The position numbers were made by a program, and so were the translations under genes. Below are positions 18,173 through 29,335 of a stretch of 48,821 nucleotides of DNA, piece by piece (the first letter of the stretch is position 1; each line of letters starts with the position of its first letter). Below the pieces are notes generated by a model that did no database searches, was not told the origin of the DNA, and saw only the letters and a program-made list of their open reading frames with translations. The stretch comes from Hyphomicrobiales bacterium (GTDB lineage Bacteria > Pseudomonadota > Alphaproteobacteria > Rhizobiales > Beijerinckiaceae). The DNA lies in the NCBI GenBank assembly GCA_028290705.1, contig JAQGJH010000020.1:1-48821 (forward strand), read 5' to 3'.

Positions 18173-19054
18173 TCAATCCGTGACGGCCTCGAACGCCAGG
18201 GCGGCGCCCATGGCGGCGCTGGGCGGCACGATCAGACGGTGCCCCACCGTTGCGGCGGCGATGCCGGCCTCATCCAGCAGATCGGCCACCACGTCCAGGT
18301 CGCGGACGGCGATCCGGCAGGCACAGAGACGCGGCCCCGCGCCGCCCGTCCCGAGCGCCGCCTCGCCGAAGCGATGAACGAACGCAACGGGCGTCAGGAT
18401 TTCCATCGACTGCCCCGGGGCGACCTCGAGGTCGATCCCCATCGAGGTGGCGAGCATCTCGCGCTGACCCGTGAGCCCCGAAAGGAACTCGCCATGCGAG
18501 GCCGGATTCTCCGCCACCACCACGATGCCCGCGATGCCCGTCGCGCCATTGGGATGCTGCTGCAGCGAGGAGGCGAAGAATTCCTCGGGATGATGATGCT
18601 GGCAGGCGAAAAAGCCGATGGCCGGCATGAGGGAAGAGCGCGCGAAGGTGAGCGTGAAGGCGACGTGACTCTCGCCGCCATCCGGCCGCTTGCCTTTCCG
18701 CTCGAAGTGAAACGGTTCGAAATCACCGACTTGGGCCGCCTTGAAGTCAGCCCGCGTGGCGACCGCGTCGGACGATTGGAGCGCAAGCATCGACAGTCCC
18801 TCCCGCTCGGCGAGTTGCTCGCAGATGAACCCCGCGAAGGAGAACGTGCGCGGATCCGGGTCCTCGGGAGGACGGAACCCCGGACCGACGCCGATCAGTT
18901 CGAGAAAATGCCCGGGAAACTGGACGATATGGTTCTCCGTTCCCCAGGGGTGATGATTGCGCGACCCGATGGTGAAACCGAGACGCTTGTAGAGCTCGGC
19001 CTGCCCTGCGAGATCGCGGGACGCATGGACGACATGGTCGATGGCGCGCGGCAT
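18173..19054 (-). CDS. VOC family protein (glyoxalase-3-like)
   Basis: The 293-residue protein starts with AIDHVVHASRDLAGQAELYK, the typical first strand of a vicinal-oxygen-chelate domain, and has ENHIVQFPGHFLELIG as the second metal-ligand strand. It resembles the Glyoxalase_3-like group, which is conserved beside kdsA and eno in Rhizobiales. The substrate is unknown. The start ATG at 19054 gives MPRAIDHVVH. Position between the homocysteine methyltransferase-like gene and kdsA, same strand, suggests co-transcription with kdsA. Confidence 0.85.
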   Translation of the reverse strand: MPRAIDHVVHASRDLAGQAELYKRLGFTIGSRNHHPWGTENHIVQFPGHFLELIGVGPGFRPPEDPDPRTFSFAGFICEQLAEREGLSMLALQSSDAVATRADFKAAQVGDFEPFHFERKGKRPDGGESHVAFTLTFARSSLMPAIGFFACQHHHPEEFFASSLQQHPNGATGIAGIVVVAENPASHGEFLSGLTGQREMLATSMGIDLEVAPGQSMEILTPVAFVHRFGEAALGTGGAGPRLCACRIAVRDLDVVADLLDEAGIAAATVGHRLIVPPSAAMGAALAFEAVTD

Positions 19055-19152
19055 GGGAGGCTCCGGAGGTTACGGCGTCGGGATCTGCAAACTAGCATTT
19101 CTCACGAGCCTCACCAATGCGTCCCCGGAGCGTGCCGACGAAGGCCCGATAT

Positions 19153-20112
19153 TCAGGCGCTCATCGCCGTCATCCTCGGGACGCAGGCCTCGCAGATCGC
19201 CGCAACGTGCCGATGGTCGGTGCCGCAGCACCCGCCGAGGATGCGCATGGCCGGGAACTTTCGCGTCAGGCGAAGATAACGCGCTGCCAGATCCTCGGGA
19301 TCGCCCGGGTCGAGGGTTTCCGACTCGTCGAGTTCGGCATGGCTGCGCGTCGACGCATTGGCCCGCACGCCGGCGATCCTGCGCATCCAGTTCTCACCGG
19401 CTTCGAGCGCCTGCTCGAAATGGGTCGGATGCGCGCAATTGATCATGTAGTAGGCCGGATAGCCGCCGGTCTGGTCATCCACCGTCTCGATGGCGTCCCT
19501 CAGGCTTCGCCCTGTCACGAGCCGGCCATCGGTTTCGACCGTAAATGAAATCATGCAGGGCATGCGCGCATTTCGGGCGGCCCGGGCAATGCCCATGGCC
19601 TCATCGACATTGGTGAGCGTGTAGGCCGAGACGAGATCGGCCTCGGTCGACGCCAGGGTTTCGATTTGCGCCGAGTGATAATCCTCCGCCTCGGCGGAAT
19701 TCATCAGTCCGGCCTTGTAACCGTCGCCGCGCGGTCCGATCGACCCGCTGATCACGCAGGGGTGTTCCGGCTGCTCCCACTCCGACCGCAGATCCTCCAG
19801 AAATGCGATGGATCGCCGGTTCATGTCGGCGAGCCCCGACGCATCATATCCGAGTTCCTCGCCCCAATCCGCATTGGCGCGCCAGGTCATACCCTCGAGG
19901 ACGAAGCCGGCGTCTCGGCCGCGCGCGATCGCCAGATATCGACGATAATAGGCGCGAAGGCGATTTCGCCCGTCCTCGGACTCGAGCAGGACGAAACTGG
20001 CAAAATGCGGCAGCAAAATACCATCGTGGAACATCAATTTGGTTTCCATTCCGCCGTCGGTCAGGAACATCTTTCCCTTCAACTGCGGCAGGTCGTGACG
20101 ATACTTGGGCAT
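19153..20112 (-). CDS. homocysteine S-methyltransferase family protein
   Basis: The 319-residue protein is a Pfam S-methyl_trans member, the zinc-dependent fold of MmuM and the N-terminal module of MetH and BHMT. It opens with FLTDGGMETKLMFHDGILLP and carries the zinc ligands in MINCAHP and GGCCGTDHRHV near the C-terminus. The methyl donor is not determined; these stand-alone enzymes may use S-methylmethionine, betaine-like donors or others. ATG 20112 has a strong AGGAGG site. It follows the methyltransferase gene by 67 bp on the same strand. Confidence 0.88.
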   Translation of the reverse strand: MPKYRHDLPQLKGKMFLTDGGMETKLMFHDGILLPHFASFVLLESEDGRNRLRAYYRRYLAIARGRDAGFVLEGMTWRANADWGEELGYDASGLADMNRRSIAFLEDLRSEWEQPEHPCVISGSIGPRGDGYKAGLMNSAEAEDYHSAQIETLASTEADLVSAYTLTNVDEAMGIARAARNARMPCMISFTVETDGRLVTGRSLRDAIETVDDQTGGYPAYYMINCAHPTHFEQALEAGENWMRRIAGVRANASTRSHAELDESETLDPGDPEDLAARYLRLTRKFPAMRILGGCCGTDHRHVAAICEACVPRMTAMSA

Positions 20113-20179
20113 CCGTGCCTCCTGGGCGATGGCGTGCCGCGCAGCGCCATACTTCTTGCGGCGACCCGCAACGCAGCAC

Positions 20180-20863
20180 CTAGCGCCGGACCTCCGGCTT
20201 GATGGCGAGCCAGATCATATGCCGTGCGCCACGCCGTCCGGCGTGCGCCTTCACACGCACCTCCTCGACGGAAAAACCTGCCTTTTCCAATCGTTTCGCG
20301 AACTTCTCATCCGGCCCGGACGACCAGACCGCCAGCACGCCACCGGGTTTCAGGGCGGCCTTTGCCTGGCCGAGCCCGCTCCACGCATAAAGCCGATCAT
20401 TGGCTGCCTGAGTCAGTCCCTCCGGTCCATTGTCGACGTCGAGGAGGATCGCGTCATAGGCCGATGGCTTGGCCACGATGGACCCGCGAACGTCTTCGAC
20501 CCGGATGCTGACGCGGCGATCGGCAAGGCAGTTCTCAAAGATTTCCGCCATGGGCCCGCGCGCCCAATCGACCACCGCCTGCGCCAGTTCAGCGACGACG
20601 ATCTCGGTCGACTGGTCGAAGGCTTGGAGCGCCGCCCGCAGCGTGAAGCCCATCCCCAGCCCCCCGATCAGCACGCGCGTTCTGGCCCTCCCCTCCAGCC
20701 GTGCCGCCGTGAGGGTGGCGAGCGCCTCCTCCGACCCGCTGAGGCGGCTGTTCATCAGTTCGTGCTGGCCGAGCCTGATCGAAAATTCCTGCCCGCGGCG
20801 CATCAGCCGCAGTTCGCCGCCGCCCGGGATCATGGCCTTGTCGAGATGCACCCAGGGAATCAA
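20180..20863 (-). CDS. spermidine synthase-like methyltransferase-fold protein
   Basis: The 227-residue protein has a Rossmann core like spermidine synthases: RVLIGGLGMGFTLRAALQA, then EIVVAELAQAVVDWARGP and DAILLDVDNGPEGLT. Family members with this layout are annotated as spermidine synthases, but an aminopropyl activity is unproven. I chose the TTG at 20863, giving MIPWVHLDKAMIPGGGELRL, because a GAGG site sits 7-8 bases upstream and this N-terminus fits the fold; an ATG 39 codons further upstream at 20980 is possible but yields a poor leader. The gene diverges from the ExoD-like gene. Confidence 0.75.
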   Translation of the reverse strand: MIPWVHLDKAMIPGGGELRLMRRGQEFSIRLGQHELMNSRLSGSEEALATLTAARLEGRARTRVLIGGLGMGFTLRAALQAFDQSTEIVVAELAQAVVDWARGPMAEIFENCLADRRVSIRVEDVRGSIVAKPSAYDAILLDVDNGPEGLTQAANDRLYAWSGLGQAKAALKPGGVLAVWSSGPDEKFAKRLEKAGFSVEEVRVKAHAGRRGARHMIWLAIKPEVRR

Positions 20864-20995
20864 ATCATGTCCTCGTCGCCGGAGTGAAGCCCCGACCGTA
20901 CCTAGCACGCACACAGGTGGGCGCCACACCGGTCGGTCCGTGGACCGGCAGGATAGCCGTTTGGAACCCGGCTCCGCCAATTCCGTTCAAGATGC

Positions 20996-21589
20996 GTGAG
21001 CAACGAACCTAAAAGCATCGGCGACATTCTCGACCGCCTCGAAGAGACTGCAGGCGGCGCCAGCAAGGTGTCGTTCGGTCAGATCGTCGAATCGCTCGGC
21101 CACCGGAGCCAGGGCCCGTTCCTGATCGTGCCGGCCCTGCTGGAAATATCTCCGATCGGCTCGATTCCGGGTGTACCCACCGTACTGGCGGCCATCGTCA
21201 TTCTGTTTGCCGCCCAGATCATGTTCGGGCGCAAGCACGTCTGGCTGCCGCAATTCGTGGCCTCGCGCGGATTGTCCGCCGAGAAGATCCGCAAGGGCGT
21301 CGAGAAGCTTCGGCCGATCGCGGAACGCGTCGACCGCTGGTTCCACGGGCGCGTTGCCTGGCTGACTGGAAAACCGTTCGTCTCGATCGCGGCGGCAGCC
21401 TGCATCCTGCTGGCTTTGAGCGTGCCGCCGCTCGAGATCCTGCCCTTCGCCAGCACGGCGCCCATGGCTGCCATCGCGGCCTTCGGTCTGGCCCTGCTGG
21501 TGCGTGATGGCGTCCTGATGATTGCGGCCGGTCTGCTCGCGGCACTCGCGGTGGCGTTCAGCCTCGGCATCGTCAGCTGGACGCTGTAA
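20996..21589 (+). CDS. exopolysaccharide synthesis protein ExoD family
   Basis: The 197-residue membrane protein belongs to the ExoD family, first linked to exopolysaccharide production and alkali tolerance in Rhizobium. It has an N-terminal cytosolic helix region (SIGDILDRLEE), the conserved GPFLIVPALLEISPIGSIPGV block (glycine-proline rich, near residues 40-60), and about four membrane segments (around 55-75, 130-150, 152-170, 172-192). The start is GTG at 20996 with no strong ribosome-binding site. It is a single-gene unit; a perfect 11-bp inverted repeat follows its stop. Confidence 0.88.
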   Translation: MSNEPKSIGDILDRLEETAGGASKVSFGQIVESLGHRSQGPFLIVPALLEISPIGSIPGVPTVLAAIVILFAAQIMFGRKHVWLPQFVASRGLSAEKIRKGVEKLRPIAERVDRWFHGRVAWLTGKPFVSIAAAACILLALSVPPLEILPFASTAPMAAIAAFGLALLVRDGVLMIAAGLLAALAVAFSLGIVSWTL

Positions 21590-21615
21590 GGGCGCGCCGG
21601 ACGACCGGCGCGCCC
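21590..21615. terminator. perfect inverted repeat between two convergent genes
   Basis: GGGCGCGCCGG (21590-21600) and CCGGCGCGCCC (21605-21615) form an 11-pair stem with the loop ACGA, right after the ExoD stop and 10 bp before the substrate-binding gene stop on the other strand. It could serve both genes. There is no T-run on either side, so it would be a strong hairpin of the non-canonical kind. Confidence 0.5.
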
Positions 21616-21624
21616 TCGAGCCGA

Positions 21625-22599
21625 CTACTTCTTGGCCGGCGGGATCTGGATCAGTTCGGCGATCTGTTCCTTGGTGAGCGGCGCCGGCAGATACTTGAAC
21701 GCGACGGCATCCTGGCCGATCTTGTCCAGACCAATGATCCGGTCCGGCTCGACGGCTGCGCGGGGGAAGAAGTCATCCCGCGAACGCTTTGCGAGTTCAG
21801 GCGTGATCTTCAACCAGTCAGCATAGACTTTGATCGCCTCCGGGTCCTTGTACATGTACTCGATCGTGTCGCGATAAGCCTGCATGTAGCGGGTGATCAC
21901 GTCACCACGATTCTTGAGCGTGTTGACGTTGGACGCCAGGACCCGGACCGTCTGGTCCTTGAACGACGTGTCGTTTCCGGAGGCGAGCAGCCGGATTTTT
22001 TTCTGGTCGATCATCTCGATGCCGAAGGGCGGCGCAGCCCAGCCGATGTCGACCTGCCCCGACATCACCTGCGTCAGGCTGGACGGAGGTGAACCGGTCG
22101 CGACCGGCTTCGCCTTCAATCCCTTTTCGCTGATGAAGGCATTGACGATGCCCTGCGTGGAGGAGCCCGCGGTTGAATAGGAGATCGTCCGACCTTCGGT
22201 ATCGGTCAGCGACTTGATCGGCGAGTCCGCCCGGACGTACCAGAACAGATCCTGCGCACCCGTGCTCTCGGCCCCGATGATGCGGATCGGCGCGCCCTTG
22301 GCGAAGGCGCTCATGGCTCCCAACGTGCCGATCGCGACGCCGACGTCGACCGCGCCGCTGATCACCGCCTGCTGGGTTTCGCCGCTCCCCTGCGTGTAGA
22401 GAATCTCGAGTTCCAGTCCGTGCTTTTTGAAAATGCCGGCGCGGCTCCCGACTTCGGACACGGACGTATCCCAGTTACCGCGCTGACCCGCCGCGACCTT
22501 GACCTTATCTTGAGCAAAAGCCGCCTGCGCGGCCAAGAGCTGCGTCGAGAGAAGCAGCATTCCCGTCACGGCAGCGCGACGGCTGAATGTAGCAAGCAT
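21625..22599 (-). CDS. ABC transporter substrate-binding protein (SsuA/TauA/NMT1-like)
   Basis: The 324-residue protein has a signal peptide (MLATFSRRAAVTGMLLLSTQ then AQAAFAQ) and a two-lobe periplasmic binding fold of the NMT1/THI5-like group, with VAAGQRGNWDTSVSEVG, GSGETQQAVISGAVDVGVA and STAGSSTQGIVNAFI. Family members bind sulfonates, taurine, nitrate, or pyrimidine-like compounds. No permease or ATPase for it lies nearby, so its ligand and partner are unknown. ATG 22599 has GGGAG upstream. It is alone between the ExoD-like gene and the ABC/methyltransferase unit. Confidence 0.85.
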   Translation of the reverse strand: MLATFSRRAAVTGMLLLSTQLLAAQAAFAQDKVKVAAGQRGNWDTSVSEVGSRAGIFKKHGLELEILYTQGSGETQQAVISGAVDVGVAIGTLGAMSAFAKGAPIRIIGAESTGAQDLFWYVRADSPIKSLTDTEGRTISYSTAGSSTQGIVNAFISEKGLKAKPVATGSPPSSLTQVMSGQVDIGWAAPPFGIEMIDQKKIRLLASGNDTSFKDQTVRVLASNVNTLKNRGDVITRYMQAYRDTIEYMYKDPEAIKVYADWLKITPELAKRSRDDFFPRAAVEPDRIIGLDKIGQDAVAFKYLPAPLTKEQIAELIQIPPAKK

Positions 22600-22717
22600 G
22601 GCGTTACTCCCATCAATCTGGCACGCCGCTTTTACGCGGTCTGAGCATATCTTCGCGTGAGATCCACGAAAAAGCCAGCGCCTTGCGGAAGGGTGCGATG
22701 CTGCATCCGCGAAGGCC

Positions 22718-22740
22718 GGTGAAGGACTGAGCCCCTCACC
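22718..22740 (-). terminator. weak hairpin downstream of the methyltransferase-like gene
   Basis: GGTGAAGG (22718-22725) and CCCTCACC (22733-22740) pair over eight bases, one of them G-U when read on the minus strand, with a seven-base loop, 70 bases past the stop of the 194-residue gene. No T-run follows. Confidence 0.25.
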
Positions 22741-22809
22741 GCTTCAGCCGAGCGCCTTCCTCAGCGTTGAGATGAAGGCGCGCGGCATGGCTGGCTTCAC
22801 CTCGAACGA

Positions 22810-23394
22810 TCAAGCAGTCTTGCGATAGACCAACAAGGTCTCGGCGAGGCCGATCTTCTCCACCTTGCGGCTCTCCTCCCACTGGGCGATCACCTTCTCG
22901 GCCGTGTCGAAGGCGAAAGACTTCGTGTAGAAAATCACGTATCCGCCAGGCCGCGTCTTGTCGGTCAGCATCTCCAGAACCTGCAGATCCGTCAGTGCGC
23001 CATATTCGTCGTTGCGCTCGTTGCGAAATTCGCAGAGGTGGAACAGCGTCACGACGTCGAATTCGGGCAGAAGCCGCGGCTCGAGCTGGTAGATGTCGCC
23101 AAAGAAGCTCTTGTAGGTCTTCTCCACTTCCGGGCGATCGATGGCGAGCTTGACGAAAGCGTCGTATTCGCCCGGACTCGCCGTGATGGCGAGAACGCAA
23201 TTGTTGCTGCCATTTTCCGCCGTCCGAATGCCCACGATGTGATGGCTGCCTGTGCCGAAGTGGAAGATCGACGCGTTCTTGACGTCGTTCTTCTCGAGCC
23301 AGTCGCAGAAATGGACGTCGCATGGACATTCCTTGACGCGCAGATCCCAGATGGCGTCCCAAAAATGCAGCTTGCCCTTCTTATCCTCAGTCAT
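22810..23394 (-). CDS. methyltransferase-like protein of unknown function
   Basis: I do not recognise this 194-residue protein as a named family. The central part looks like a Rossmann-type methyltransferase: FHFGTGSHHIVG near residues 45-56 as a motif-I substitute, DIYQLEPRLLPEFDVVTLFH near 99-118 as motifs III-IV, and GGYVIFYTKSF near 150-160. The N-terminus has several charged residues and CPCDVHFCDW with three cysteines and a histidine, perhaps a metal site. The start codon overlaps the stop of the upstream ABC gene by 8 bp, so the two are translationally coupled and probably act together. Confidence 0.6.
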   Translation of the reverse strand: MTEDKKGKLHFWDAIWDLRVKECPCDVHFCDWLEKNDVKNASIFHFGTGSHHIVGIRTAENGSNNCVLAITASPGEYDAFVKLAIDRPEVEKTYKSFFGDIYQLEPRLLPEFDVVTLFHLCEFRNERNDEYGALTDLQVLEMLTDKTRPGGYVIFYTKSFAFDTAEKVIAQWEESRKVEKIGLAETLLVYRKTA

Positions 23395-25291
23395 GCTTCT
23401 CTCCGATCGTGAGTTTCTCGACGTTCGCCAACGAAGGCCTGCGCCGCGTTTCGTGGCGCGTCATGTCGCGCTCGACGAGCTGGACCGAACCAGCATCGTC
23501 CCGCACGAGCATGAAACGCCGCGTATGGTGCTGGGCGAGCGTGGATGCTCCCCCGACGGTGATGATCGTGGCGCTGGGCAGCTCACGCGCCAGCGCCTCG
23601 AACAGGATGATCTGCGTTGCGTCGTCGAACCCGGACAGCGCATCTTCGAGAACGACAATCTGTGGTTTCATGGCCAGAACCCGCGCAAAGGCGAGGCGCT
23701 GTTTCTCGCCGCCTGAAAGGGCCTGTTCCCAGCGCGCGCTTTCGTCGAGCCGGCGGGTGAGGTGCCCTGCCCCGCAGACGTGCAGCGCAGAAACGATGTC
23801 GCCGCGCGTGCGTGCTCCTGAGGGAAGCGGATAGATCAACGCATCTTCGAGCTTTCCGGCCGGCAGGATGGGAATGGCCGGCAGAAACACGAGCTGCCGA
23901 TCCGCCGGCATGAAGATGCGCCCCTCGCCCCATTGCCAGAGGCCCGCCATGGCCCGCACCAGAGTGCTCTTCCCGGTTCCCGGCTCGCCCGTCAGCCAGA
24001 CGCGATCGCCCGGCGCGAAGCTCGCCTCCGCGGATTCAATCACGACGCGACCGGACGCATCCGTCAGCCGCAACTCTTCGAGATGAACATGGGCGTCGGG
24101 GCTTGGCGTACGCTCCAGCATCGGCGCGGCGCCCGCAGCCGAGCGATCGGTTTCCTCGAACGCATCCACCAGTTCCACGACGCGCCGGGCCGAGGCGAAC
24201 CATTCCGCCAGCCGCCAATAATTGTCGACCAACCAGCCGATGGCGATCTGCACCTGCGCGAAGGCGGATGCCAGTTGCATCACCTCGCCGAGCGACAACT
24301 CGCCCGCCAGATATTTCGGCGCGGCCAGCACCAGCGGCACGACGGGCACCAGCGAACTGTTGGCGTTCATCAGCCACGTCACGCGCGCATGCTGCCGAAC
24401 GACGGAGAGCCAGTCGCGCACGAGCGCCGAATAGGTCTTGTCGAGCCGATCGCGTGCATTGCCTTCGCCCTGCGACAGCACGACCGCCTCGGCGTTTTCA
24501 CGCAGCCGGATCATCTCGAACCGGAAACGCGCCTCCGACTCGTTTTTGGCGGCCGCAGCGCCGGAGAGATGCCGGCCGACGATGGGCATGAAGGCCGAGA
24601 CGATGACGCCATACACGAGAGCGCCGACGACCATGAAGGCCGGCACCTGGATCTGGACGCCCCCGAGCCTGACGTCCAGCTCACCGCCCACGGTCCAAAG
24701 GATCACCACGAAGGTTGATGCCGAAAGAACGGCGGTGAAGAGCCCGATGGCGAAATCGACCAGCGGCTCGGTCGCCATGCGGACGTCGTCGGAAATTCGG
24801 TATTCCGGATTGGCCATGCCGGTCGGCGACACGACCATGCGGTAAAAACGCTGCCGGGCGATCCAGCGGTCGAGAAGGCGCGCGGTGCACCACTCGCGCC
24901 AGCGCACCTGGAGAGTTTCACGCGTGCGCACGATGCTGACGCCGACGGCCGCGATGCAGAAGATCAAAACGACGAACGCCAAAGCGGCAAACCCTGCTGA
25001 GGCCGCATCGTGCCGCTCCAGCGCGTCGAAAAACCAACGGTTCCAGCGATTGAGCGCGACGTCCACACCGAGTTTCAAGATCAGGCAGCCGGCCAGCCCG
25101 ATCGTGAGCCACCAAGCCATGCGGCTCGAGGGGCCGCTCCAAAACCCCGTCGTGAAGGCATTGAAGCTGCGGACGGTGGCCCGGTCGATCGTCGGGGATG
25201 ACTCAGCGGTTCCGGTGCCGAACGGATCGCTCACCAGACGTCGGGCCCCGGAAGGATGGCTGTGGCTTGGGCGCTCGGGAACATCCGCCAA
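23387..25291 (-). CDS. SbmA/YddA-type ABC transporter, fused permease and ATPase, with degenerate ATPase motifs
   Basis: The 634-residue protein has an N-terminal ABC_membrane_2 domain (about 60-370, several hydrophobic helices) like SbmA/BacA and YddA, then an ABC ATPase domain (about 410-610). Walker A is GEPGTGKST and the signature LSGGEKQRLAFAR is intact. Other sites are changed: the Q-loop reads FLPAIPILP (usually FLPQRPYLP), Walker B and catalytic base read VVLEDALSGFD (usually FLDEATSALD, so D and E are swapped) and the switch histidine of SVGHRSTL is replaced (TVGGASTL). ATP turnover may be low or absent. The start is a TTG at 25291, but a GTG 19 codons on is possible. It overlaps the methyltransferase-like gene by 8 bp. 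Confidence 0.85.
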   Translation of the reverse strand: MADVPERPSHSHPSGARRLVSDPFGTGTAESSPTIDRATVRSFNAFTTGFWSGPSSRMAWWLTIGLAGCLILKLGVDVALNRWNRWFFDALERHDAASAGFAALAFVVLIFCIAAVGVSIVRTRETLQVRWREWCTARLLDRWIARQRFYRMVVSPTGMANPEYRISDDVRMATEPLVDFAIGLFTAVLSASTFVVILWTVGGELDVRLGGVQIQVPAFMVVGALVYGVIVSAFMPIVGRHLSGAAAAKNESEARFRFEMIRLRENAEAVVLSQGEGNARDRLDKTYSALVRDWLSVVRQHARVTWLMNANSSLVPVVPLVLAAPKYLAGELSLGEVMQLASAFAQVQIAIGWLVDNYWRLAEWFASARRVVELVDAFEETDRSAAGAAPMLERTPSPDAHVHLEELRLTDASGRVVIESAEASFAPGDRVWLTGEPGTGKSTLVRAMAGLWQWGEGRIFMPADRQLVFLPAIPILPAGKLEDALIYPLPSGARTRGDIVSALHVCGAGHLTRRLDESARWEQALSGGEKQRLAFARVLAMKPQIVVLEDALSGFDDATQIILFEALARELPSATIITVGGASTLAQHHTRRFMLVRDDAGSVQLVERDMTRHETRRRPSLANVEKLTIGEKHD

Positions 25292-25294
25292 GAC

Positions 25295-25408
25295 TTAGCT
25301 TTTTGTGACGCAACGGGAAAGTCCCGAACTCCATGGGACCTCGGGCGGCAGGTCGAACGTACTCCCCAGGGCATTCTTCACCTTCTTCTCGGCCAAGGTT
25401 GTGATCAT
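25295..25408 (-). CDS. possible 37-residue leader ORF upstream of the ABC gene
   Basis: A short ORF opens with ATG at 25408, reads MITTLAEKKVKNALGS then FDLPPEVPWSSGLSR, and stops with TAA at 25295-25297. It is in the same frame as the ABC gene, whose TTG start at 25291 lies one codon beyond the stop. The codons are GC-rich in the third position and the peptide looks amphipathic, but there is no clear ribosome-binding site and I know of no match. It may be a leader peptide, a small protein, or chance. Confidence 0.3.
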   Translation of the reverse strand: MITTLAEKKVKNALGSTFDLPPEVPWSSGLSRCVTKS

Positions 25409-25581
25409 GGTACAAAGTCAGGCGGCTTGGGAAGCATCTAAAGGTCGGAGGCGCCTTCCTGGTGCCAACCCGGCGCGCTAGCCTGAATACGTAGAAGCAC
25501 GGTGAGCAGCCGGTAAAGCAAAGTCAAAGGTTGTGGTGTTCCTTGGCTTGATCGTTGCTTTGCTTCGTCGGGAACAAACAA

Positions 25582-25609
25582 TTGTTGATGGTGTCTCGCC
25601 TATTTTATT
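25582..25609 (+). promoter_or_regulatory. possible promoter of the KaiC-like gene
   Basis: TTGTTG (25582-25587) and TTTATT (25604-25609) are 16 bp apart and four of six bases of the second match a -10 consensus. A start site near 25616 would give a leader of about 120 bases holding the repeat and hairpin. Confidence 0.3.
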
Positions 25610-25636
25610 TTTGAACGTTGAAGTACGATCCGCGCG

Positions 25637-25670
25637 AAGCCGCGGTGGGCGGTTCGGCCAAGCCGCGGTG
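25637..25670. repeat. 11-bp direct repeat upstream of the KaiC-like gene
   Basis: AAGCCGCGGTG occurs at 25637-25647 and again at 25660-25670, a 23-bp period or about two helical turns, as expected for cooperative binding of a regulator. It lies 65-98 bp before the start codon. Confidence 0.35.
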
Positions 25671-25698
25671 CTCCTCGAGAATCCGCGCTAGCGTCGAA

Positions 25699-25727
25699 TT
25701 CCGGTTTCTCGTCTCAAACCGGGAATT
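25699..25727 (+). promoter_or_regulatory. hairpin covering the ribosome-binding region of the KaiC-like gene
   Basis: CCGGTTT (25701-25707) and AAACCGG (25716-25722) pair perfectly, with flanking TT and AA extending the stem across a bulge. The only Shine-Dalgarno-like bases before ATG 25735, GGGA at 25721-25724, lie in the 3' arm, so folding could limit translation. Confidence 0.35.
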
Positions 25728-25734
25728 TCATTAG

Positions 25735-27273
25735 ATGTCAGCAATGCTTCAGCCAGGCCACCCGCTCAGAAAGCCCGTCAAGCCGAGCGAAGTCGTACCT
25801 TCAGGCGTGAAGGGGCTGGATGCGGTGATCGGCGGCGGGTTCGCGAAGCATCGCGTCCACCTCATCGAGGGGGCGCCCGGATCCGGCAAGACCACGCTGG
25901 GAATTCAGTTCCTGATGGACGGCGTGTCGCGCGGCGAGCGAGCGCTCTACATCACCCTTTCCGAATCGAAGGTCGAGATTCTTTCGGTCGCCGACAGCCA
26001 CGGATGGTCGCTGGACGGGATCGACATTTTCGAACTCGTCCCCCCGGAACTCAGCCTCGATCCCGGACAGCGCCAGACCATCGTCTATTCGGCGGATCTC
26101 GAATTGGGCGAGACCGTCCAGGCCGTCCTGCGCGAAGTCGAGCGGGTGAAGCCCCAGCGGATCGTCTTCGACAGTCTGTCGGAAATTCGCCTGCTGGCCC
26201 AATCGTCGCTGCGCTACCGGCGGCAGGTTCTCGCACTGAAGCATTACTTCGCCCAGCATTCCTGCACCGTTCTTCTCCTCGACGATCTGACGTCGGAGGG
26301 CGACGACCTGAACCTTCACTCGATCAGCCATGGCGTCGTCCGCATGGAGCAGATCGCGGTGCAATACGGATCGGAACGCCGCCGCCTGCGGGTCTTCAAG
26401 ATGCGCGGTTCCAAGTTCCGCGGCGGCTTCCACGATTTCTCTATCCGGCGCGGCGGCATCGAAGTCTACCCTCGACTCGTTGCATCCGAACATCACCGGG
26501 ACTTCGACGACAGCGTTCCGGCAAGCGCCGGAGTCGAGGAATTCGACCAGATGCTCGGCGGCGGCTTCGATCGCGGGACGAGCACGCTGATCATGGGACC
26601 AGCCGGCAGCGGAAAATCGTCGCTTGCCTTTCAGATCATTTATGCGGCTCTCCAGCGCGGCGAGAAAGCCGTGGTCTTTTCCTTCGACGAAACGAGACGC
26701 ATTCTTCTGAAGCGCTGCAAGGGCATGGGCATCGACCTTCTGCCGTATCTCGAATCGGGCCTTTTGCGCCTTGACCAGATCGATCCAGCTGAGTTGTCGC
26801 CTGGCGAACTCGTGGGCCGCGTGCGCGCCGCCGTCGAGGATGGAGACGTACGCCTCGTCGCGCTCGACTCTCTGAGCGGCTTCCTCAATGCCATGCCTGA
26901 AGAACATTTCATGCTGCTGCAAATGCATGAATTGCTGACCTATCTCAATCAGCAGGGCGTCGTGACGCTCCTGCTTCTCGCGCAGCACGGACTGATTGGA
27001 CAGATGCAGTCGCCGGTCGACCTCACCTATCTGAGCGACGCGGTCCTGCTGCTTCGCTTCTTCGAAGCCCACGGCGCCATTCGTCATGCCATCTCGGTCA
27101 TCAAGAAGCGAACCGGCTCCCACGAGCGCAGCATCCGCGAGTACAGGATCAGCAACGACGGCGTTCGCATCGGCCCTGCGCTGACGCACTTTCGCGGCAT
27201 TCTCACGGGGGTGCCAAGTTTCGATGGTCCGCGCGAGAGCCTGATCGAGAACGCCAATGACGCGCAGCTCTGA
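25735..27273 (+). CDS. KaiC-like double-domain ATPase
   Basis: The 512-residue protein has two RecA-like KaiC domains. Domain 1 (about 15-245) has Walker A GAPGSGKTT and KMRGSKFRGGFHDF; domain 2 (about 260-495) has Walker A GPAGSGKSS, FSFDETRRIL and the DSLSGFL Walker B region. One of the two catalytic glutamates of each KaiC domain seems kept (LSESK; FDETR). In my manual alignment the KaiC autophosphorylation pair Ser431-Thr432 falls on Thr-Tyr (DLTYLSD). No kaiA or kaiB is nearby. The gene overlaps the histidine kinase gene by 17 bp, so the two form one unit. True circadian function is not implied; many proteobacterial KaiC homologues act in stress signalling. Confidence 0.88.
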   Translation: MSAMLQPGHPLRKPVKPSEVVPSGVKGLDAVIGGGFAKHRVHLIEGAPGSGKTTLGIQFLMDGVSRGERALYITLSESKVEILSVADSHGWSLDGIDIFELVPPELSLDPGQRQTIVYSADLELGETVQAVLREVERVKPQRIVFDSLSEIRLLAQSSLRYRRQVLALKHYFAQHSCTVLLLDDLTSEGDDLNLHSISHGVVRMEQIAVQYGSERRRLRVFKMRGSKFRGGFHDFSIRRGGIEVYPRLVASEHHRDFDDSVPASAGVEEFDQMLGGGFDRGTSTLIMGPAGSGKSSLAFQIIYAALQRGEKAVVFSFDETRRILLKRCKGMGIDLLPYLESGLLRLDQIDPAELSPGELVGRVRAAVEDGDVRLVALDSLSGFLNAMPEEHFMLLQMHELLTYLNQQGVVTLLLLAQHGLIGQMQSPVDLTYLSDAVLLLRFFEAHGAIRHAISVIKKRTGSHERSIREYRISNDGVRIGPALTHFRGILTGVPSFDGPRESLIENANDAQL

Positions 27274-29335
27274 ACTGCCGCCAGCGCCAAAGGTCGTCGT
27301 TCTCGCGCCCATCGGCCGCGACGGCCAGGTGATCTGCGCGATCCTGACGGACGCCGGTTTCGATTGCGAAATCGCGACCGACGTGAAGGATCTTCTCGGA
27401 CGCCTGGACACCGCGTCGGCGGGCGTTCTGGCCGAAGAGGCCTTCACCAGCTCGTCCGAACTGGCATTGATCGATCAATGGCTGTCGATCCAGGAGGCAT
27501 GGTCCGATTTCCCGTTCGTGCTGCTGTCGATCCCCAGCGACGAAGCGGACCAGCGCCGTGCCCAGCTTCGCGACGTTCTCGGAAACATCACGCTCCTGGA
27601 GCGGCCGCTTCGCCCCGACACGCTGGTGCGCGCGGTGCGTTCCGCATCCCGTGCGCGTCAGCGGCAACGCGAAGCGGCGCGGCTGCTGGACGAACGAGCC
27701 CGTGCCGAAGCCGAACGCCGCGTTCGCGAGGAACGGCTCCGAGAACTCTTCGACAATGCCGCAGACGCCATCTTCATCACGGACTCCGCCGGCTGCGTGA
27801 CGGACGTGAACCCGGCCGCCTGCACGCTCCTCGAAGCGCCGCGCGAAGACCTGATCGGCCGTCTCATCGCCAGCCTGATCATGCCGGACGAGCGCGAAGA
27901 CTTCACGCTCTGGATGGCCCGCCAGACCGATGGGCAGGCGACCTCGGCGGAATGGCGCATGATCCGTCCGCGCGGCCGTTGGCTCGATACGGAGATCAGC
28001 GCCCGCGTGCTCAGCGATGGACGATGGCAGGCCTTTGCGCGCGACATCGGCGACCGCAGGCTTGCCGAGGAAGCCTTGCGCGACTGGAACGAGACGCTGG
28101 AGGCCCGCGTCGCCGAACGGACGGCTGAACTCGTCCAGACCCAGACTGCATTGGCGCAGGCGCAGAAGATGGAAGCCGTCGGCCAGTTGACCGGCGGCGT
28201 CGCGCACGACTTCAACAACCTGCTGATGGTGATCTCCGGCGGCCTCGAAATGCTCAGCCGCGACCCTGATCCCGAACGCCGCAAGCGCGTCACGGACGGG
28301 ATGCGGCAGGCGGTCGAACGCGGCGCGGCCCTCACCCGCCAGCTGCTGACCTTCTCCCGGCGCGACGCGCTCAAACCCGTGGTTCTCGAATTGGATCGTC
28401 GCATCAGCGCCATGAGCGAGATGCTCGAGCGATCCTTGCGCGGCGACATTCGCGTCGAGATGAGTTTTCAGTCGCAGCTCTGGCCTGTCGACGTAGACCC
28501 CACACAGCTCGAACTTGCCGTCCTTAATCTGGCGGTGAATGCGCGCGACGCCATGCCGGAAGGCGGCACCCTGCGCGTTCGCGGCGAAAACGCACCCGAC
28601 GTGCAGGACGAAGATCTCGCCGGCGACTTCGTTCGTATCGCCGTTTCCGACAACGGCAGCGGCATGTCGGCCGAAATCATTGCCCGGGTCTTCGAACCGT
28701 TTTTCACGACGAAGGGCATCGGCAAAGGCTCAGGGCTTGGCCTTGCGCAAATCTACGGCTTCGCAAAAGAGTCGGGCGGCGGTGTCCGCATCAGCAGCGA
28801 AGTCGGCGTCGGCACCACGGTTTCGGTTCTGCTGCCCCGCACCCGGCGCGTGCCGCTCGCCGCCGATCTCGTCAGCGATGACAGCGCGCGTATCCATCGC
28901 TCCGCCCGCACGTCCCCGGAAGCCACTGTACTGCTGGTCGAGGACGACGACGAAGTCGCGGCCCTCGTGGGCGAGATGATCGAACAACTCGGATATGACG
29001 TCACGCGCGTCGCGACTGGCGCCGCGGCTCTGGGCGCCATGGCCAATGGCCGCGATATCGACGTGGTGTTCTCTGACATCCTCATGCCGGGCGAGATGAG
29101 CGGCGCCGACCTGGCGCGCGAGATTCGGCGGCGGCGGCCTGACATGCCCATCGTCCTGACCACGGGCTACGATGGCGAGGCCAGGGTCGCGACGGACCAG
29201 TTGCGCCTTCCCGTATTGCGCAAGCCATACCGGCTCGAGGCTCTGGCCCGGGTGCTGGCGGACGCCATTCAGCGACGGGGCACGCAGGACGCAGGCGCCG
29301 GCGAGGACGACACAAGGATGATCGGGGCCGGCTGA
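27257..29335 (+). CDS. hybrid histidine kinase with N-terminal pseudo-receiver, PAS, kinase and receiver domains
   Basis: The 692-residue protein starts with a receiver-like fold (about 10-130) that lacks the phospho-Asp: the strand that should hold it reads AGVLAEEAF, and the usual K-P pair is ERPLRP. A coiled-coil-like linker and a PAS domain (about 165-280, NAADAIFITDSAGCVTDVNP) follow. The kinase core has the H-box GQLTGGVAHDFNNLLMVISG, the N box NLAVNARDAMPEGG, DNGSGM, and the GSGLGLAQIYG G2 box. A C-terminal receiver (about 555-675) has a normal acidic pocket (VEDDDE), phospho-Asp in VVFSDILMPG and KPYR. No membrane segment is seen. Overlap with the KaiC-like gene suggests that the kinase reads or sets the state of that ATPase. 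Confidence 0.88.
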   Translation: MTRSSELPPAPKVVVLAPIGRDGQVICAILTDAGFDCEIATDVKDLLGRLDTASAGVLAEEAFTSSSELALIDQWLSIQEAWSDFPFVLLSIPSDEADQRRAQLRDVLGNITLLERPLRPDTLVRAVRSASRARQRQREAARLLDERARAEAERRVREERLRELFDNAADAIFITDSAGCVTDVNPAACTLLEAPREDLIGRLIASLIMPDEREDFTLWMARQTDGQATSAEWRMIRPRGRWLDTEISARVLSDGRWQAFARDIGDRRLAEEALRDWNETLEARVAERTAELVQTQTALAQAQKMEAVGQLTGGVAHDFNNLLMVISGGLEMLSRDPDPERRKRVTDGMRQAVERGAALTRQLLTFSRRDALKPVVLELDRRISAMSEMLERSLRGDIRVEMSFQSQLWPVDVDPTQLELAVLNLAVNARDAMPEGGTLRVRGENAPDVQDEDLAGDFVRIAVSDNGSGMSAEIIARVFEPFFTTKGIGKGSGLGLAQIYGFAKESGGGVRISSEVGVGTTVSVLLPRTRRVPLAADLVSDDSARIHRSARTSPEATVLLVEDDDEVAALVGEMIEQLGYDVTRVATGAAALGAMANGRDIDVVFSDILMPGEMSGADLAREIRRRRPDMPIVLTTGYDGEARVATDQLRLPVLRKPYRLEALARVLADAIQRRGTQDAGAGEDDTRMIGAG

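Follow-up and report, generated by a model that had tools for sequence, protein, structure and literature searches.

The closest described relatives of the proteins reported here belong to the YddA/BclA family of ATP-binding cassette (ABC) proteins, which we take to be the same as COG4178. Its members, Rv1819c among them, carry a membrane domain (PF06472) followed by a nucleotide-binding domain (NBD; PF00005). A second group, the SbmA/BacA proteins or SLiPTs, has a related membrane domain. One study proposes that SLiPTs descend from a YddA-like ancestor through loss of the NBD, argues this from trees and a few split or NBD-less genes, describes a glutamate ladder that SbmA uses and that YddA holds in part, and proposes E193 as the proton switch of SbmA (PMC13316013). 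Here we describe a two-gene locus in 48,821 nt of DNA from a Hyphomicrobiales bacterium (contig JAQGJH010000020.1; the whole stretch is called the window below). It encodes a YddA/BclA-type ABC half-transporter and a 194-amino acid (aa) partner protein, and among the relatives of the pair the catalytic residues of the NBD are altered clade-wide. We give about an even chance to the reading that this is a two-gene module in which a cytosolic enzyme is served by a transporter that has given up ATP hydrolysis as its power source.

The locus consists of the following parts.

23387-25291, minus strand: ABC half-transporter of the YddA/BclA type, with a membrane domain and an NBD whose catalytic residues are altered (Pfam and PDB matches)
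22810-23394, minus strand: 194-aa partner, predicted class I methyltransferase fold, without a Pfam or NCBIfam match at E 0.1
23387-23394, minus strand: 8 bp shared by both genes, which probably couples their translation

When we checked the open reading frames of the window, the ABC gene gave 634 aa from a TTG start and the partner started at an ATG with GGAG a few bases 5' of it. The 8-bp overlap reported in the initial annotation was borne out, with 23387-23394 common to both frames. Among relatives the spacing between the two genes was -23 to 133 nt; in our first set of relatives it was -4 in 6 of 40.

The ABC protein matched ABC_membrane_2 (PF06472, E 2.8e-36), SbmA_BacA (PF05992, 2.8e-15) and ABC_tran (PF00005, 5.7e-14), so a membrane domain of the ABC_membrane_2/SbmA_BacA type is fused to an NBD and the YddA/BclA architecture is present. 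Its best solved relative by sequence was Rv1819c (6tqe, E 4.3e-62), which also ranked first when we ran Foldseek with the predicted model. The NBD of that model is confident. SbmA was absent among the 50 listed structure matches, which is uninformative about SbmA. Human ABCD1, ABCD3 and ABCD4 share the overall fold at Z 22-26, tied with type IV ABC proteins such as MRP4; the match to ABCD1 had Z 25.6 over 441 residues with a root-mean-square deviation (rmsd) of 4.2. The ABCD proteins are ATP-hydrolysing transporters, unlike our reading of the present proteins, and we know of no such partner gene for them.

The motifs of the NBD in the window copy are as follows.

23966-23989, minus strand: Walker A GEPGTGKS, residues 435-442, Lys kept
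23870-23890, minus strand: Q-loop VFLPAIP, Gln replaced by Ala
23699-23719, minus strand: signature LSGGEKQ, residues 525-531, intact
23624-23659, minus strand: Walker B, catalytic Glu and D-loop IVVLEDALSGFD, D and E swapped
23543-23563, minus strand: switch (H-loop) region ITVGGAS without His

We aligned this copy with L002, a canonical paralogue from the same genome that is 46% identical and reads FMPQKPYIP, LSGGEQQR, IIMDEATSALD and SVGHRP. Each change falls at a catalytic position; the stretch from Walker B to the D-loop reads VVLEDALSGFD, and the canonical residue is gone at each of the Q-loop (Gln), Walker B (Asp), catalytic (Glu) and switch (His) positions. Aligning Rv1819c gives the same picture, save that 6tqe, the solved chain, itself carries Gly in place of the catalytic Glu, presumably an engineered change. 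The initial annotation had named the same changes (Gln to Ala, the swap of Walker B and catalytic base, His to Gly) and had described Walker A and LSGGEKQ as kept. Translation confirmed the two kept motifs and the alignment with L002 confirmed the four altered sites.

To see how far the changes extend, we compared 48 NBD-bearing proteins encoded beside the partner (linked) with 53 homologues that are not (unlinked), after removing copies with identical membrane domains. Many of the 53 come from the same genomes as linked copies. The aligned switch His is found in 0/48 linked and 50/53 unlinked proteins, the catalytic Glu in 12/48 and 53/53, the Walker B Asp in 29/48 and 53/53, and the Q-loop Gln in 11/48 and 53/53. 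The Walker A Lys is found in 47/48 and 53/53; the sole linked copy without it is L187, in which Walker A is replaced (DLGQEVASA). No linked protein has all five residues, while 50/53 unlinked proteins do (Fisher 1e-25, a value that ignores shared ancestry). Because the switch His is lost in all linked copies and the catalytic Glu, Q-loop and signature are altered in most, hydrolysis is probably no longer useful to these proteins. The changes are therefore not a feature of one strain, as the initial annotation had allowed they might be.

TAP and TM287/288 are heterodimers with one degenerate ATP site, and the linked protein could be the degenerate half of such a pair with a canonical YddA-type paralogue, which would leave one competent and one degenerate site. 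We think this quite unlikely. Close canonical paralogues do share genomes with many linked copies (L002, L097-L103, L198, L199, L201, L202, L212, L213), and the LSGGEKQ of the window copy could complete the site of the paralogue. However, five of the nine genomes compared that hold a linked NBD-bearing copy show only relatives of 31-35% besides the linked copy at E <= 1e-30 (G1046, G1103, G227, G082 and G246, with completeness of 95, 98, 98, 100 and 89). The intact signature is also unusual for the clade, although it is real in the window copy. The second signature Gly, whose loss would spoil the competent site, is kept in 28/48 linked and 52/53 unlinked proteins, and so lost in 20/48 against 1/53. 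The first is kept in 2/48 linked and 44/53 unlinked, so that it is lost in 46/48, but also in 9/53. Members without any NBD, described below, likewise speak against a heterodimer.

The linked proteins group together on evidence other than their motifs. In a tree of the membrane domain only, which makes the grouping free of NBD motifs, a single branch (98/93) sets apart 41 linked rows, and 0 of 500 label shuffles came out as low. A second tree, which includes more distant rows, needs two changes of the linked label, because the pair L148/L153, which lies beside the partner in divergent orientation, groups with an unlinked protein; the other 46 linked rows form a group with weaker support (88/81). 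In this tree L095, an unlinked copy, lies near L148/L153, which are NBD-less. For both trees the full copies L068-L077 stand in for the truncated L012-L023, and L193-L219 are outside. L061 was left out as it is on the same contig as L049. L028, which has an in-frame stop, is absent from alignment A2 and carries X at the stop in the trees. The second tree has 72 of 98 rows; L026, L041, L050, L052, L054, L070, L074, L077, L172, L179 and 16 unlinked rows were omitted as near copies, as truncated rows or to save time. The homologue set omits L003-L005, L007 and L008, which are other ABC proteins of the same genome, and the NBD-type match of L024.

The partner gave a match in 33 loci in our contig search, and in 29 of these it is immediately preceded by the ABC gene in the same orientation. 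Among the four further loci, the sequence upstream is just 39 nt long in L024 and <480 nt in L053. In genome samples, which overlap with each other, the partner was found in 47/199 genomes of its own family, 13/249 of the order, 4/385 of the class and 4/398 of the phylum, with the genome of the window included in each of the last three. Of the 47 family genomes, 26 (24 plus the window and G082) have the ABC gene adjacent and in the same orientation, and two (L148, L153) have it beside the partner but divergent. It is adjacent in 11 of the 13 partner-positive genomes of the order sample, which supports the tie between the two genes that the initial annotation had proposed. With up to five ABC candidates scored per genome, the 11 best ABC matches among the 249 order genomes are the 11 linked positions, and since each order genome has at most one partner match, the lower ABC matches are unlinked.

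Some linked relatives have lost the NBD outright. In L044, L046, L048, L162 and L189, all operon-linked, the ABC gene encodes a membrane domain only, and its stop lies 15-89 nt before the partner; for L048 we read the absence of the NBD directly in the sequence. Parsimony on the second tree gave six changes of NBD presence overall. As we read that tree, four are losses inside the linked clade (L044 with L046, L048, L162 and L189) and two are losses outside it (L148/L153 and the unlinked L104/L105). The count is approximate because L162, L189 and L048 have long branches. L218 is a further NBD-less protein, clade-like by 50% identity and by a glutamate at position 125 (E125; see below). L104 and L105 are YddA-type membrane proteins of 373-403 aa in G184 and G101, genomes that also hold a linked pair. 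In L028 there is an in-frame stop at residue 471, inside the dead NBD, with the membrane domain and the partner open; this is either a sequencing error or a new NBD loss.

The initial annotation had suggested a slow or regulatory ATPase, in which hydrolysis at a low rate would gate transport. In its favor, an acid (D or E) is found at the catalytic position in 37/48 linked proteins and the scaffold of the ATP site is kept. The aligned switch His in 0/48 and G, S or H at the catalytic position in 11/48 count against it, and so does an NBD that is dispensable in several lineages. We judge a slow ATPase to be unlikely, and less likely than a protein that needs no hydrolysis, because several lineages without the NBD keep the membrane domain and the partner.

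In the copies that retain it, the dead NBD shows relaxed yet real purifying constraint. The ratio of nonsynonymous to synonymous change (dN/dS) of the NBD was 0.044-0.270 with a median of 0.123 in 13 close linked pairs, in which the median for the membrane domain was 0.072, and it was 0.049-0.204 in 11 unlinked pairs. The median ratio of NBD dN to membrane-domain dN was 1.56 in the linked pairs and 0.92 in the unlinked pairs. These figures are descriptive, as the pairs share branches and several have dS > 1, and they cover 13 of the 14 linked pairs chosen (L074/L075 gave no dN/dS). A second line of evidence comes from the stretch of the membrane domain that resembles coupling helix 2.

24464-24502, minus strand: coupling-helix-2-like (EAA-type) motif RENAEAVVLSQGE, eroded in NBD-less relatives

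The unlinked consensus of this stretch is RENAESIALLGGE. Over its nine best-conserved columns, the 53 unlinked proteins keep 6-9 (median 8), the 48 linked NBD-bearing proteins keep 4-9 (median 7) and ten NBD-less proteins keep 1-5 (median 3.5). The motif thus erodes mainly once the NBD is gone, and this pattern suggests continued docking of the dead NBD.

These results also bear on whether the NBD is a decaying relic without a role, in which case the protein would be an SbmA-like secondary transporter with baggage. The recurrent loss of the NBD fits a relic, as do the stop inside the NBD of L028, the raised dN ratio and a coupling-motif score slightly below that of unlinked proteins. Against it, the dN/dS of the dead NBD stays at 0.04-0.27, the Walker A Lys is nearly always kept, the NBD model is confident, and the coupling motif is clearly better kept than in NBD-less forms. 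On balance we find a relic improbable.

If ATP hydrolysis is not used, other residues may provide the energy coupling, and we looked at two stretches of the membrane domain.

24779-24811, minus strand: coupling region 1 NPEYRISDDVR, with D168 at the column of SbmA E193
24896-24922, minus strand: RETLQVRWR with E125, diagnostic of the linked clade in a residue scan

Coupling region 1 (NPEYRI-DDVR) is kept in NBD-bearing and NBD-less members. All 52 invariant columns of alignment A2, in which 3 of 27 rows have no NBD, lie in the membrane domain. An alignment that includes SbmA and YddA of E. coli shows an incomplete ladder in the linked clade (E193, E203, E269, E276, E287, E378): E276 is present in 41/41 linked proteins, E378 is E in 28/41, and the E193 column is Asp in 41/41. 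The SbmA mechanism is therefore not simply copied, and ion coupling would have to rest on E125 and D168. When we scanned for residues that all linked copies share but that close unlinked copies seldom have, four came out: G117, E125, D168 and W306. Position 125 is Glu in 47 of 48 linked NBD-bearing copies (the other has a gap) and in 4 of 5 linked NBD-less copies, against Met in 33/33 close unlinked copies; Glu is found there in 2/53 unlinked proteins (the distant L207 and L208). E125 lies in a long predicted helix (96-154) after a hydrophobic run and may be a new ionisable gate residue.

As judged by homology, the linked clade is a derived branch of YddA/BclA in which the catalytic residues of the family are no longer intact, and it is set apart by these altered residues, repeated NBD loss, the operon-like 194-aa partner and E125. 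Like SbmA/BacA, it may work without hydrolysing ATP, and its NBD-less members resemble the SLiPT architecture. In contrast to SLiPTs, most of the clade keeps the NBD, the window copy included, and the five operon-linked relatives above are without it; the ladder is incomplete, and coupling region 1 is kept even in the NBD-less members.

The partner is a highly conserved family that is unnamed in Pfam, NCBIfam, PHROGs and PADLOC. The window copy had no Pfam or NCBIfam match at E 0.1, and a sequence search of the PDB returned nothing better than E 0.5. Among 31 family members there were weak matches to Methyltr_RsmB-F (four members, best E 0.015), Methyltransf_23 (one, 0.0033) and Methyltransf_12 (one, 0.094). 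An AlphaFold2 model from an alignment of 31 family members (pLDDT 87.1) has a class I methyltransferase fold. The nearest solved folds, 3ntv and 8c9v, match at Z 14.8 over 163 and 167 residues with an rmsd of 3.0, tied with many methyltransferases. The Rossmann-like fold is shared with class I S-adenosylmethionine (SAM)-dependent enzymes such as 3ntv, TrmR, TehB and UbiG (Z ~14-15, ~155-167 residues). The term methyltransferase-like in the initial annotation thus fits at the level of the fold, and no sequence match above a family cut-off ties the protein to a known methyltransferase family.

Twenty-four residues are invariant among 76 unique partners (the partner of L062 is outside this set). 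They include W16, C23, P24, C25, D26, H45, G47, G49, H51 and H52, and further D100, Y102, H119, E122, D136 and S159. By our count from the strands of the model, 13 of the 24 directly follow a strand, which is where the pocket of this fold is located. Several of the 24 fall in two stretches.

23305-23328, minus strand: partner CPCDVHFC; C23, P24, C25 and D26 invariant in 76/76
23239-23265, minus strand: partner FHFGTGSHH, loop after strand 1; H45, G47, G49, H51 and H52 invariant in 76/76

The three cysteines that the initial annotation had seen near the N-terminus are C23, C25 and C30; of these, C30 varies within the family and the other two do not. The partner may have a Cys/His metal site. 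Class I SAM methyltransferases carry acids in motif I and at the end of strand 2. The partner differs from them in having no family assignment, in the invariant CPCD and HH, and in lacking these acids, with His45 at the position of the motif I acid and Thr71-Ala72 at the end of strand 2. Twenty of the 76 partners have no adjacent ABC gene, which indicates that the enzyme has a role of its own.

In the two-gene module that we favor, a YddA/BclA-type, ABCD-like half-transporter, probably homodimeric, would move a molecule without ATP hydrolysis. The dead NBD would fold and, from the kept Walker A Lys, probably bind nucleotide without useful hydrolysis. It would have turned into a structural or regulatory domain that stabilises or gates the transporter and that some lineages have shed. 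The driving force may be an ion gradient, probably of protons, or else facilitated entry pulled by the partner, and E125, perhaps with D168, would be the candidate for an ionisable residue that stands in for the SbmA ladder, which is incomplete here. We infer that the cargo is a small hydrophilic or peptide-like molecule that is imported, and that the partner, cytosolic and perhaps metal-dependent, would modify or trap it.

Several observations weigh against this module. One ancestral event may suffice for the loss of the switch His, and the copy counts are not independent. In three of the 48 linked proteins (L036, L042, L049) the residue right after the switch column is a His, and the switch His is also lost in three of the 53 unlinked ones (L092 in G238, L095 in G089 and L214 in G1129). 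The linkage is not universal: 19 of 47 family genomes showed no ABC gene in the sequence retrieved on either side of the partner. Most of the retrieved stretches extend ~2-4.8 kb upstream (one has 473 nt and two have 1.6 kb; four of the 19 have <2.7 kb) and <=1 kb downstream. L218 is located away from the partner gene of its genome. Equivalents of E203, E269 and E287 are absent in the linked clade, D168 is not exclusive to it (the unlinked proteins have Asp in 9/53, L002 included, and Glu in 43/53), and L189, linked and NBD-less, has M at position 125. The absence of the usual SAM-binding acids leaves SAM use by the partner open to doubt. Of what the initial annotation had proposed or asked, ATPase changes that define a clade are supported by the tree and by the switch His (0/48 against 50/53). 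Their constant occurrence with the partner stands only as a frequent linkage, and its undescribed two-gene system as a clade tied to a partner that also occurs alone.

The protein could also be a membrane receptor or scaffold that recruits and controls the partner enzyme, with its transport role gone. The conserved linkage and coupling region 1 would fit this, as would the identity to the window copies in L025-L042, which is 72-82% for the partner and 51-62% for the ABC gene. However, the membrane domain is strongly conserved (52 invariant A2 columns) and the partner also lives without the ABC gene, and we consider a receptor very unlikely.

A more specific version of the two-gene module is tentative. 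It is a series from primary to secondary transport, separate from that of SbmA, in which hydrolysis would have been lost once and E125 gained, the NBD kept as a nucleotide-sensing clamp and then shed several times, and the substrate captured by a new Cys/His-metal enzyme with a methyltransferase fold, encoded together with the transporter. Our literature searches showed no account of this clade or pair, going by titles and the opening lines of abstracts. Forms with a dead NBD and forms without one occur within a single group, and canonical relatives are often present in the same genomes, which makes the order of losing hydrolysis, keeping the domain and then dropping it directly testable. A candidate residue for taking over the energy input is likewise testable in the linked clade. 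The pair may show how an ATP-driven pump becomes powered another way.

A role with vitamin B12, suggested by Rv1819c and ABCD4, found no support: we detected no cobalamin or other riboswitch in window positions 19000-27000, nor in 11 of the 33 contig-search loci (3 tRNAs only). A defence system was rejected, as PADLOC gave only NBD-level ABC matches and nothing for the partner, and so was a phage system, as PHROGs gave ABC and unknown-function matches for the transporter and nothing for the partner. We saw no shared upstream operator; the best 8-mer occurred in 14 of the 56 upstream stretches, some of which are near-copies of each other, and one shuffle already gave 9 of 56. The upstream stretches scanned held no close match to an ICE-box, the best having 3 mismatches (L038). 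No conserved third gene was seen, as neighbours recur only among subsets of loci, and the orphan partners inspected had mixed neighbours. The opposite-strand neighbours of L024, L030, L037, L039 and L041, which are one group of relatives, resemble, by eye, a nickel/cobalt energy-coupling factor (ECF) transporter cluster.

Elsewhere in the window, a KaiC-like double-domain protein (PF06745) is encoded at 25735-27273 on the plus strand. This gene overlaps by 17 bp with one at 27257-29335, also on the plus strand, which encodes a PAS/histidine-kinase/receiver-like protein as identified by eye from the translation. On the minus strand, at 19153-20112 and 20180-20980, a gene like homocysteine S-methyltransferase (PF02574) follows a gene with sub-cut-off matches to spermidine synthase.

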